Shown piece after piece: positions 9,236 through 39,356 of a DNA stretch of 64,000 bases. Position 1 is the first letter of the stretch. Every line of letters starts with the position of its first letter. The notes under the pieces are model-generated. The model ran no database searches. It was not told the origin of the DNA and saw nothing but the letters and a program-made list of their open reading frames with translations. This DNA comes from Winogradskyella sp. (GTDB lineage Bacteria > Bacteroidota > Bacteroidia > Flavobacteriales > Flavobacteriaceae), in NCBI GenBank assembly GCA_004211785.1, contig SHBX01000001.1, forward strand, positions 62,001 to 126,000. The letters are read 5' to 3'. A program made the translations under genes and the position numbers.

Positions 9236-9251
9236 AACTTTCATACTGCCA

Positions 9252-9271
9252 CATCGAGTGTAGTCAAGATG
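9252..9271. repeat. Degenerate REP-like imperfect palindrome CATC-GAGTGTAGTCAA-GATG
   Basis: Same architecture as the copies at 31038-31060 and 31432-31454, with complementary arms CATC/GATG. Confidence 0.55.
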
Positions 9272-9290
9272 ATATCTATAATAGACTATT

Positions 9291-30352: not shown

Positions 30353-30862
30353 TTACTCAAATAATGCTTTCAATTCAGTAGCATCGTCAGGTTTCATTTT
30401 ACCAGCTAATACCAGACTTAGTTGTTTACGTCTTAAAGCGGCTTCAAAACGTTCTTTTTCTAATTCAGTTTCTGGTATAAGTTCTGGGACTTTTGTTGGC
30501 CTCCCTGTTTCGTTTACGGCAACAAAGGTGTAGATGGCTTCATTAGCTTTAATACATTCACCAGATTCACGATCTTCAATCCAAACATCCATATACACTT
30601 CCATAGACGATGTAAATGCTCGAGACACTTTAGCCTCAATAGTTACAACACTTCCTAATGGCACAGAACGATTAAAAGCCACGTGATTTACAGAAGCGGT
30701 AACTACAATACGCCTTGAGTGACGCCTTGCAGCAATACTAGCTGCACGATCCATACGTGCTAGAAGTTCGCCACCAAAAAGATTATTTATAGGATTGGTT
30801 TCACTTGGTAAAACAAGGTCAGTAACAATAGTTTTTGACTGAAATGCCGTTTTTGCTTCCAT
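30353..30862 (-). CDS. Acyl-CoA thioesterase (hotdog fold)
   Basis: PSETNPINNLFGGELLARMDRAASIAARRHSRRIVVTASV. Confidence 0.88.
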   Translation of the reverse strand: MEAKTAFQSKTIVTDLVLPSETNPINNLFGGELLARMDRAASIAARRHSRRIVVTASVNHVAFNRSVPLGSVVTIEAKVSRAFTSSMEVYMDVWIEDRESGECIKANEAIYTFVAVNETGRPTKVPELIPETELEKERFEAALRRKQLSLVLAGKMKPDDATELKALFE

Positions 30863-30922: not shown

Positions 30923-31037
30923 AGGTCATTTTATATTAAAGGCTATAAAATTTGTAATATGTTATCACTAATCATGAAACGGTCTTAATAGCATCTCTAA
31001 ATTAATATATTCAGTTATTATGAAATTTTTAATTTCA

Positions 31038-31060
31038 ATATCGAGCGATAGTCGAGATAT
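31038..31060. repeat. REP-like imperfect palindrome ATATC-GAGCGATAGTCGA-GATAT
   Basis: Complementary 5-nt arms around a core related to the 31432-31454 and 9252-9271 copies. Confidence 0.7.
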
Positions 31061-31077
31061 ATTTATTAAATTAAAGT

Positions 31078-31422
31078 ATGTATTATCAGTTTTACATTTA
31101 TATACTTCAGTGTTTCGACGGCAAACTATATACGGGATTCACTAATAATATTGAACGACGAATAAATGAGCATCAGAAGGGATTAAATAAAACTGCTTAT
31201 ACATATAAAAGAAGGCCAGTCTCTTTAATATTTCATCAAGAATTTAATGACGTTTTTCAAGCAAAAGCTTTTGAAAGGAAAATTAAGAAATGGTCTGTAA
31301 ATAAGAAACTAGCTTTGGCTAATGATGATTTTGATAGATTGAAATTACGTTCTATTTGTCAAAATGATACTTCAAGTGCATTTGTAAATTCAGAATATAT
31401 CCCTAAACGATTGAGAGGATAG
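31078..31422 (+). CDS. GIY-YIG nuclease family protein
   Basis: FYIYILQCFDGKLYTGFTNNIERRINEHQKG. Confidence 0.92.
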   Translation: MYYQFYIYILQCFDGKLYTGFTNNIERRINEHQKGLNKTAYTYKRRPVSLIFHQEFNDVFQAKAFERKIKKWSVNKKLALANDDFDRLKLRSICQNDTSSAFVNSEYIPKRLRG

Positions 31423-31431
31423 TTAATAAAG

Positions 31432-31454
31432 AGTTCTCGACTGACGCTCGAACT
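31432..31454. repeat. REP-like imperfect palindrome AGTTC-TCGACTGACGCTC-GAACT, inverted relative to the left copy
   Basis: Core 11/13 identical to the reverse complement of the left copy; arms differ but remain complementary. Confidence 0.7.
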
Positions 31455-31518
31455 AAAATTTAGAATTTAATTTGAAAGATTATTTATATGTCGAGTAATA
31501 GTTTAAGCTATAAACAAT

Positions 31519-32457
31519 TTACTTATTCAAATCCTTAACTAATAACCAAGCATCTTTGTTATGTGCTTTTCGGATAGTATACATAGCACGTTGCGCTTCA
31601 GTTCTACTGCCATAGCTTGAGTAAACAACCTCATGCAAACCGTAGCGGTTAATACCTATTTTGCGGGCTCTATAACCTAAATCTCGCAGTTGTTCTACTT
31701 TTTTATCGGAGTTAGCTTCTATTCTAAAAGCACCGGCAACAATATGGTAATTGCCCATTTGTTTTTCTACAGAGAATGTTGCAGCTGGCAATGGATTGCT
31801 AATAAAAAAGGTCGCTTCTTGAATTTTGTTATCAATCTCATTATTTGCCTCTTGCTGGGCTATTTGATTATGAGTTTCTACATTATTATTTAAATGATTG
31901 TAAACACCAAAACCACTTAAGCCTAATACAATAACAGCTGCTGCCGCGTATTTAAGCAAGTTAACAGAACGCTTTTCAGGAGATAATACAATCGGAGCCT
32001 TTTCTTCAATAGCTTCAGCTTCTTGCTTGTAAATTTCACGAGTAACATCTTGTGCATTAAAATGCGATAAACCAAAAGCATCTGTTAAATAATTGATGTG
32101 ATAAGAAGGACTGAAAACAATACTGCCTTCAGAATTCAATAATAAATCACCAATATTATTAAACGAAATGGTCTCGCCTTCTACCAAGTAAGATTTGATA
32201 GATTTTACCTGTTTTGCGACTTTCTCAACAGCTACTTGATACGGAATCTTCTCTATATCGGCAATATAGTTTGCTAAAAGCCCATCATTATTTTGAAGTT
32301 GCTCATTAAAAGACAATACTTTTTTTGGCGGGTAAAACGTGTGTGTAGATTCGTGTATTTTGGCAGACACTCGATTGGTTAAAAACGCACCAAACCCTGG
32401 CACGGTAACACAATCGTATCTATATAATAAGTCGCTGATGTAAGTTTCTAACTGCAT
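31519..32457 (-). CDS. HU/CCDC81-like N-terminus plus TM plus C-terminal SPOR domain protein (start corrected to 32457)
   Basis: MQLETYISDLLYRYDCVTVPGFGAFLTN; C-terminal NYHIVAGAFRIEANSDKKVEQLRDLGYRA SPOR motif. Confidence 0.82.
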   Translation of the reverse strand: MQLETYISDLLYRYDCVTVPGFGAFLTNRVSAKIHESTHTFYPPKKVLSFNEQLQNNDGLLANYIADIEKIPYQVAVEKVAKQVKSIKSYLVEGETISFNNIGDLLLNSEGSIVFSPSYHINYLTDAFGLSHFNAQDVTREIYKQEAEAIEEKAPIVLSPEKRSVNLLKYAAAAVIVLGLSGFGVYNHLNNNVETHNQIAQQEANNEIDNKIQEATFFISNPLPAATFSVEKQMGNYHIVAGAFRIEANSDKKVEQLRDLGYRARKIGINRYGLHEVVYSSYGSRTEAQRAMYTIRKAHNKDAWLLVKDLNK

Positions 32458-32462
32458 ATACA

Positions 32463-32470
32463 CAAATTTA
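32463..32470 (-). promoter_or_regulatory. Putative -7 box TAAATTTG immediately before the SPOR gene start
   Basis: TAnnTTTG on minus strand, 5 nt from ATG 32457. Confidence 0.5.
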
Positions 32471-32558
32471 GAAATTTTTGATTTGAATGCACACATCACC
32501 TAAGGTATTTATTAACATCTCAAAAAAATGGTATTTTTAAAGCCTATTCTGTATTTAA

Positions 32559-37674: not shown

Positions 37675-38082
37675 TTATTGAACAACTGGCACCTCCACTA
37701 TCAAATACTGATCTTCTCCAATTTGTGTAGAACCTTGGAAAAACTGAAAAATATATGGATCCGGACTCAAGACTAAAAAATCAAAAGAAACTGAAGCTTC
37801 TTCAGCATTTGCAGAGCAATTAGGGTCATCGTAAACTGTATCTACAACAGCAACAGTTCTCGTATTTCCATCACTTTGAAAAATAAAATCATTAAACTCA
37901 TGACACCCATTTGGTCTTAGATAATTTACCGTGATTTGATGAGTCTCACCAAGTGTAAATTCTGATGGCACAATTACATCAGTTATAGACATGATTTCAA
38001 GTTCAAAGTTTATGCCATCATCACTGCCAATATCACAGGATAAAAGCGTTCCTAAAACAAATAATAATAGTAATTTTTTCAT
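37675..38082 (-). CDS. Small lipoprotein of unknown function
   Basis: Lipobox FVLGTLLSCDIGSDDG. Confidence 0.65.
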   Translation of the reverse strand: MKKLLLLFVLGTLLSCDIGSDDGINFELEIMSITDVIVPSEFTLGETHQITVNYLRPNGCHEFNDFIFQSDGNTRTVAVVDTVYDDPNCSANAEEASVSFDFLVLSPDPYIFQFFQGSTQIGEDQYLIVEVPVVQ

Positions 38083-38151
38083 TAATTTTTTATTTATAAT
38101 TATTGCTTACTCTAAGCAAGATGCAAAAAGGTTAAAATGGTTGCGTCTAAA

Positions 38152-38189
38152 AACAAATAAATCCTGAAAATTTTCAGGATTTATTTGTT
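38152..38189 (-). terminator. 38-bp perfect palindrome, likely recA terminator
   Basis: AACAAATAAATCCTGAAAA|TTTTCAGGATTTATTTGTT, followed on the minus strand by TTTA; overlaps the recA stop codon. Confidence 0.8.
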
Positions 38190-39195
38190 AAGCTACATTT
38201 TCATTGACTTTTGCCCTTACTTTTTCTTCTAATTCATCCATTAGTTCGGGATTATCTTTAATTAATGCTTTTACTGCATCTCGACCTTGACCAAGTTTGG
38301 TGTCGTCATAACTAAACCAAGAACCACTTTTCTTTATAATATCATGCTCTACGGCAATATCTAAAATTTCACCGACTTTAGATATGCCTTCGCCGTACAT
38401 AATATCAAATTCAGCCATTTTAAAAGGTGGCGCTACTTTATTCTTCACCACCTTAACTCTGGTTTTATTACCCATTACAGTGCTGTTACTATCTTTGATT
38501 TGAGTAGAGCGTCTAATATCTAATCTTACAGAAGCATAAAATTTCAGAGCATTACCACCAGTAGTAGTTTCAGGATTACCGAACATTACACCAATTTTTT
38601 CACGTAACTGATTAATAAAAATCATTGTACAATTGGTTTTGCTAATCGAGCCCGTTAATTTTCTTAAAGCTTGAGACATTAAACGTGCATGAAGCCCCAT
38701 TTTAGAGTCTCCCATTTCGCCTTCAATTTCACTTTTTGGTGTTAGAGCAGCAACAGAGTCAATGACTATGATGTCTATCGCACCAGAGCGCACTAAATTA
38801 TCTGCAATTTCTAGAGCTTGCTCCCCATTATCTGGTTGTGATATGATTAAGTTTTCTAAATCTACACCTAGCTTTTCAGCATAAAATCTATCAAACGCAT
38901 GTTCTGCATCAATAAATGCAGCAATACCGCCAGCTTTTTGAGCTTCTGCAATGGCGTGCAGAGTTAACGTAGTTTTACCAGAAGATTCTGGGCCATATAT
39001 CTCAATAACTCTTCCACGAGGATATCCGCCAACACCTAAAGCAATATCTAAGCCAAGTGATCCAGAAGAGATAGCCTCTACGTCCTCAATGGCTTGATCG
39101 CTCATTTTCATTACTGTTCCCTTTCCATAGGCCTTGTCTAACTTATCTAATGTTAGTTTTAGCGCCTTTAATTTCGCGTCTTTTTCACTACTCAT
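38188..39195 (-). CDS. recA: Recombinase RecA
   Basis: GPESSGKTT Walker A and full-length RecA similarity. Confidence 0.98.
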
Positions 39196-39356
39196 CTATT
39201 CAATTTTTTACTGTTAATCTTGAAGGTAAAAATAGCACTTCTTTTAAGAGATTACAATTTTATGACGCAACCATTTTATACTTTTTGCATCTACTAAATG
39301 AAAAAGGAAAAAATTGCTATGTAAAAGTTTAGAATTTTAGCTTAGCTATTTTAGAA

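Follow-up and report, generated by a model that had tools for sequence, protein, structure and literature searches.

A small gene for a stand-alone GIY-YIG nuclease lies between two inverted, REP-like palindromes in the window (the whole 64,000-nucleotide stretch of Winogradskyella sp. DNA analyzed here), which raises the question of whether the nuclease and the repeats belong together as one mobile unit. Our results favored a two-part, REP-type selfish unit made up of a small GIY-YIG endonuclease and its cognate hairpin repeats, which we regard as the likely explanation of the locus.

The window cassette and its nuclease

The features of the locus, in window coordinates, were as follows.

9246..9273, plus strand: possible solitary, decayed REP-like element, TGCC-ACATC-GA-GTGTAG-TC-AA-GATGA, which fits the structural grammar given below
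30353..30862, minus strand: acyl-CoA thioesterase-like gene that marks the left side of the insertion, adjoining the SPOR gene in 28 relatives
31033..31060, plus strand: 5′ REP-like element of type A, read from the sequence as a decayed tag TTTC, then A-ATATC-GA-GCGATAG-TC..., with the stem ATATC/GATAT and a bulge
31078..31422, plus strand: small stand-alone GIY-YIG nuclease gene, 114 aa
31432..31458, minus strand: 3′ REP-like element with an outward, decayed tag, AGT-TCGA-GCGTCAG-TCGA-GA-ACT, the inverted partner of the 5′ element
31488..31512, plus strand: third REP copy, decayed (TCGAGTAATAGTTTA), located past the 3′ element and before the next gene's stop
31519..32499, minus strand: SPOR-domain-like gene that marks the right side of the insertion, present in 69 of 69 genomes of the genus

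The positions given for the two palindromes by the sequence-only reading were right: a gap of 17 nt separated the left palindrome (31038-31060) from the ATG at 31078, and one of 9 nt separated the stop at 31422 from the right palindrome (31432-31454). The two elements agreed in their cores at 11 of 13 positions, as had been claimed, and the type A core of the 5′ element was common to 15 other cassettes. The pattern TCGAGNNATAGTNNA matched at 31041 and at 31491 (third copy, 31491-31505), with 0.02 matches expected. In the 2.9-Mb source genome, a draft of 55 contigs that is 89.7% complete, the exact core GAGCGNNAGTCGA was found three times, twice in the window cassette and once in a solitary element, and the reversed control pattern was not found at all. 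Repeat copies in this genome were few, about 3-5 by strict patterns. The solitary element, which holds the only exact core outside the window (L006:1501-1513), was intergenic, upstream of a SecD-like gene, and had an intact GTC tag (GTCATTTCGAGCGTCAGTCGAGAACTT). The proposal of a further relative at 9252 stood in part, since the element has the form of a solitary, decayed copy under the grammar, but core matches with two mismatches allowed were not enriched over the full window (5 found, 4.07 expected). An Rfam search with the window cassette gave no match. The tags of the window elements were decayed to TTTC and TTTT in place of TGTC, so the window cassette may no longer move; it looks partly decayed and may be a relic.

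A different inverted motif was seen at recA (38188-39195), which is located between copies of ACGCAACC-N9-TTTTTGCATC at 38120-38146 (minus strand) and 39265-39291 (plus strand). Genomes of the genus had 0-3 copies each, for the most part close to the recA locus. Both 37675-38082 and an apparent sigma-factor gene lie downstream of the minus-strand copy, so the motif looks like an ECF-type autoregulated promoter and not a mobile repeat.

The identification of the ORF as a GIY-YIG nuclease was borne out by PF01541 (E 2.7e-17), and the predicted fold was clear from the Pfam and PDB sequence matches, the nearest solved relatives by sequence being the UPF0213 proteins 1zg2 (E 1.3e-10) and 1ywl (E 1.2e-9). 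Although UPF0213/YhbQ proteins share this fold by sequence, their members in the comparison genomes formed separate clades and had no bracketing repeats. The conserved residues Y7, Y17, G19, R27, H31, and E65 were all present in the window protein, and the residues expected for catalysis, invariant or nearly so across 60 relatives, appeared intact in this copy. The source genome had six PF01541 proteins. All four small stand-alone genes among them (the window gene, L002/L056, L003/L057, and L079) were bracketed by inverted (T)GTC-tagged palindromes of differing types, and no bracketing palindromes were found at UvrC (L080) or at the gene of a 457-residue GIY-YIG protein (L081). In a phmmer comparison, the window protein matched a GIY-YIG protein of N. 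gonorrhoeae (L200) with an E of 8e-8, the two belonging to different clades. A distant endonuclease was the only match in PHROGs, and a weak PADLOC match to UzuA (E 0.0097) was dismissed.

Bracketing repeats and their folded form

The association of repeats with GIY-YIG genes was examined in a sample of 69 genomes of the genus, one per species, with ORFs called mechanically. The test set consisted of 41 stretches of about 20 kb, the window included, which contained 47 GIY-YIG genes and 689 other ORFs. When each gene was scored by the best inverted repeat between its 200-bp flanks, a score of at least 14 was reached by 28 of the 47 GIY-YIG genes and by 8 of the 689 other ORFs (p 5e-31); the window gene itself scored 16.5, above the 99th percentile of the control ORFs (14.8). 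A structural grammar was also derived from the genus elements themselves, [CTG]GTC-N5-GA-loop-TC-(GA)-N5', which requires four or more of the five arm positions to pair and the tags to be directed away from the gene. This grammar was matched at both ends by 27/47 GIY-YIG genes vs 4/689 other ORFs (OR 231, p 2e-32), and two of these four ORFs adjoined a GIY-YIG gene. With the grammar fixed in advance, other genera of the phylum were then examined: both ends matched at 15 of 28 loci and at 2 of 54 shifted controls, and an inverted repeat scoring at least 12 was present at 24 of the 28 loci and 3 of the 54 controls. The comparisons show that small GIY-YIG genes are bracketed by two predicted inverted elements with outward tags, and the enrichment at these genes over other genes, for which the sequence-only reading had called, was strong.

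The refined form of the element was [CT]GTCA-N4-GA-loop-TC-(GA bulge)-N4', with the tag outward. Pairing of the arms was examined with the tag, GAG, and TCGA as anchors and with no pairing required, which gave 43 distinct arm pairs. Arm positions 2-5 were Watson-Crick in 91% of cases vs 38% with shuffled arms (maximum 52% in 5000 shuffles), while position 1, which was paired in just 35%, belongs to the tag ([CT]GTCA). The two-base GA bulge was present in all grammar-found elements, though the grammar would also have accepted elements lacking it. The tag of the 75 cassette-end elements was TGTC or CGTC, or in one case GGTC. In types A-C an outer stem of 4 bp was followed by the GA bulge, an inner stem of 2 bp, and a loop of 3-38 nt. 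Taken singly, the window hairpins were no more stable than shuffled sequences (z -0.06 and 0.18). The case for a conserved fold is therefore carried by comparison between relatives and not by folding energy, and it is by comparison that the covarying stem of each bracketing element, and with it the earlier proposal of selection on a bulged, self-complementary structure, is borne out.

The arms differed between the two ends of a cassette in 24 of 27 cases, from which we infer that unlike arms would prevent the hairpins of one cassette from annealing to one another. For type A the unlike ends seemed to have a fixed polarity relative to the gene, but type C did not bear this out, and the idea was rejected.

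Short palindromes are common and single hairpins are weak, as the energies above illustrate, so chance palindromes or transcription terminators beside a small gene have to be weighed. This explanation has a negligible probability: the enrichment held against matched short ORFs (2/127 with both ends matching the grammar) and against ORFs with wide intergenic flanks (2/126), the polarity of the tags was fixed, the arms covaried, and the sites were empty in relatives.

Insertion junctions and gene-less repeat pairs

The thioesterase and SPOR genes were adjacent, with no GIY-YIG gene between them, in all 28 relatives that had both neighbor genes on the fetched stretch. The gap between them was 57-173 bp in 25 of the 28 and 660 bp in the window; in the nearest relative, whose SPOR protein was 92% identical, it was 57 bp. 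Genome comparison shows the unit in the window as a recent, lineage-specific insertion, which, with one genome per species compared, is seen between species and not between strains. The empty sites anticipated by the earlier reading were found here and at two further junctions, and together with the enrichment they support its idea of a nuclease-repeat system.

At the junction of the cupin and hydroxyacid dehydrogenase genes, a second cassette site, the two genes overlapped in three relatives. Five other relatives had type E/F repeat pairs or their remnants at this junction, one had a type A repeat, and in G045 there was a cassette with type E repeats whose GIY-YIG nuclease belonged to another clade. 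Across species, at least three kinds of repeat pair and two kinds of nuclease cassette were observed here (L056, L259-L276). The junction is an insertion hot spot at overlapping stop and start codons. At the third site, between the FabZ and ketoacyl synthase (KAS) genes, which abutted or overlapped in most relatives, G017 had a cassette with a nuclease 82% identical, and G018 had a 134-bp repeat pair whose unlike ends matched both ends of the G000 and G017 cassettes. This pair is most simply read as a cassette minus its gene or as a cassette precursor. The cupin/dehydrogenase and FabZ/KAS junctions did not define a target-site duplication.

Among the close repeat pairs of the genus, which were read by eye from a list, the tags pointed outward in 17 of 18, and the distance from start to start was 28-51 bp, as in REPINs. 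Judged from these comparisons, gene-less short inverted pairs are found throughout the genome as well as at the gene junctions used by the cassettes. The 47 GIY-YIG genes fell into 20 neighborhoods, and some cassette sites were common to several species, which implies that many copies were inherited and not freshly moved. Tandem identical copies of a cassette were present in G065 and G003 (L060, L070); at L060, L070, L073, and L063, two or three near-identical cassettes stood in tandem with shared hairpin repeats between them. Such arrays are recent local duplications.

GIY-YIG homing endonucleases exist, and if the enzyme cut the empty double-stranded site and the cassette was copied in by double-strand break repair, cassettes would also be expected exactly at junctions between genes where relatives have none. 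Homing is nevertheless improbable, because a single clade occupied several unrelated sites, the cassettes of two clades were found at one junction, and the match to TIGR01453 was far under the cut-off (18.2 bits vs 56.05), by which membership in that homing endonuclease family was rejected. Homing also leaves unexplained the inverted cognate hairpins around the gene and the gene-less pairs.

Nuclease clades, tagged repeats, and the proposed unit

When repeat type was placed on a tree of 73 GIY-YIG domains, built from a short alignment and with many weak forks, 7 changes were needed for 7 groups (minimum 6), compared with a mean of 43 after shuffling, and none of 200 shuffles was as low. Types A (16 rows) and C (22 rows) each made up one side of a tree branch. 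The type E repeat, which is the dRS3/CGTC-1 palindrome ATTCC..GGAAT, was tied to a single nuclease clade with members in Neisseria gonorrhoeae, N. viridiae, Nitrosospira, Lysobacter, Pirellulales, Dehalococcoidia, and Poribacteria, its phyla including Planctomycetota and Chloroflexota, together with a few flavobacterial-type copies. Since the named genomes were chosen for having dRS3-like repeats, they are fairly judged only against their own other PF01541 genes, among which the UvrC and UPF0213-like GIY-YIG genes had no bracketing pair. On this tree the repeat type is shown to follow the nuclease clade. Further repeat types flanked small GIY-YIG genes at L210 (Calditrichaeota; GATCCTTCACTTCGTTCAGGATGACA) and at L217 (Curtissbacteria; CGTCATTGCGAG..CGAAGCAATC), which makes the existence of other nuclease-repeat pairs probable.

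The core TCGAGCGNAGTCGAGA was present in 0-34 copies per genome of the genus, and its reversed control was never found. The median was 10 copies in genomes that encode a close relative of the window nuclease and 2 in the others (p 1.7e-6). G067 had 26 type A repeat cores, but no GIY-YIG relative was detected there; its repeats have either outlived a lost enzyme or are spread or handled by another one.

The anatomy of the cassette resembles that of RAYT, REPtron, and REPIN systems in having a single enzyme gene between inverted hairpin repeats, a tag beside the hairpin, and, at other genomic positions, inverted repeat pairs without a gene, but the enzyme is a GIY-YIG nuclease (PF01541) whereas the RAYT is an HUH Y1 tyrosine transposase, and the tag is TGTC or CGTC instead of the GTAG of RAYT REPs. 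This REP-like anatomy, and the presence of Y1 transposases in some genomes of the genus, would suit ordinary REPs that are spread in trans by a RAYT or IS200-type Y1 transposase and stand near GIY-YIG genes by accident. A search of the source genome for PF01797 (Y1 transposase/RAYT) gave no match, however, and the same was true of G044 and G067, which had 34 and 26 repeats; the action of a RAYT in trans is therefore unlikely. With the enrichment at GIY-YIG genes and the coupling of clade and repeat also against it, this explanation is very improbable.

The repeats are also similar to the CGTC-tagged REPs, which were stated to be without a dedicated transposase and unassociated with transposase genes, and which have a stem of 8-9 bp, a loop of 4-5 nt, and A-T first pairs (Di Nocera et al. 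2013, PMC3733652). In both, a CGTC or TGTC tag stands unpaired beside one end of the palindrome, inverted dimers predominate, heterodimers are common, and the type E repeats at GIY-YIG genes match the CGTC-1/dRS3 pattern. They differ in that types A-C are outside the published stem and loop sizes, to which only the type E repeats conform, and in that the repeats described here flank a nuclease gene. In the literature searched, no paper linking REPs to GIY-YIG genes was found.

Ssn, the nearest system described so far, is reportedly a GIY-YIG family of site-specific single-strand nucleases, described in Nature Communications in 2025. The enzyme of Neisseria meningitidis is said to act on a repeated target, NTS, and to modulate transformation, and the many homologues are said to have their own target sequences. 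We take the N. gonorrhoeae protein at L200 to be Ssn itself. Similar to Ssn, the window has a small stand-alone GIY-YIG nuclease with a cognate repeat in the genome, and the Neisseria gene was found here to be bracketed by inverted dRS3-type repeats. The window protein, however, belongs to another clade, its repeat is a bulged GA hairpin and not a perfect dRS3 palindrome, and its unit is a bracketed insertion with gene-less derivatives, which may set it apart from Ssn. If the Ssn work is as reported, the pairing of enzyme and repeat is already known in kind, and a mechanistic link, of which the earlier reading knew no description, has probably been described for the Neisseria Ssn and its repeated target.

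An Ssn-like, site-specific single-strand nuclease might also act without transposition, its repeats shaping recombination or natural transformation, and the cassette being spread only by homologous recombination in the flanks or by horizontal transfer. The repeats around the related gonococcal gene, the reported modulation of transformation, and the cassette sites common to different species are in favor of this explanation, but clean lineage-specific insertions between abutting genes, and gene-less pairs at the cassette junctions, are hard to produce by flank recombination alone. We consider it somewhat unlikely, though the most serious of the alternatives.

In the two-part selfish unit that we prefer, a GIY-YIG nuclease fits the role of the RAYT. 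Each element would fold once the locus becomes single-stranded during replication, repair, or DNA uptake, and the nuclease would recognize the bulged hairpin together with its tag, most plausibly on single strands. It would nick at or near the hairpin and tag at both ends, thereby freeing or marking a short hairpin-ended fragment, which the repair and ligation enzymes of the host might insert elsewhere, with a preference for gene junctions. The gene-less pairs would ride along with this enzyme, much as REPINs do with RAYTs. GIY-YIG enzymes hydrolyze DNA and form no covalent protein-DNA link, so the chemistry would differ from that of the RAYT and rejoining would rely on host enzymes.

Our analysis of the window locus adds a bulged-hairpin branch, covariation, clade coupling, a bracketed cassette with lineage-specific insertion, gene-less pairs at cassette junctions, and an explicit tie to the CGTC REPs. 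REP elements are among the commonest bacterial repeats, and the data link the CGTC class and its bulged relatives to one specific, tiny nuclease in several phyla. We propose tentatively, at somewhat less than even confidence, that in many bacterial phyla GIY-YIG nucleases are the mobilizing enzymes which the CGTC REP superfamily had seemed to lack, and that they evolved in parallel to the RAYTs while nuclease clades and hairpins co-diversified. Hydrolytic nicking of bulged hairpins followed by host repair, with no covalent intermediate, would then be a second, chemically distinct route by which REP and REPIN-like elements are made and spread. If true, this would explain the origin of thousands of intergenic hairpins, supply nuclease-hairpin pairs of varied specificity, and connect a transformation-related nuclease of Neisseria to a selfish, REPIN-like lifestyle.
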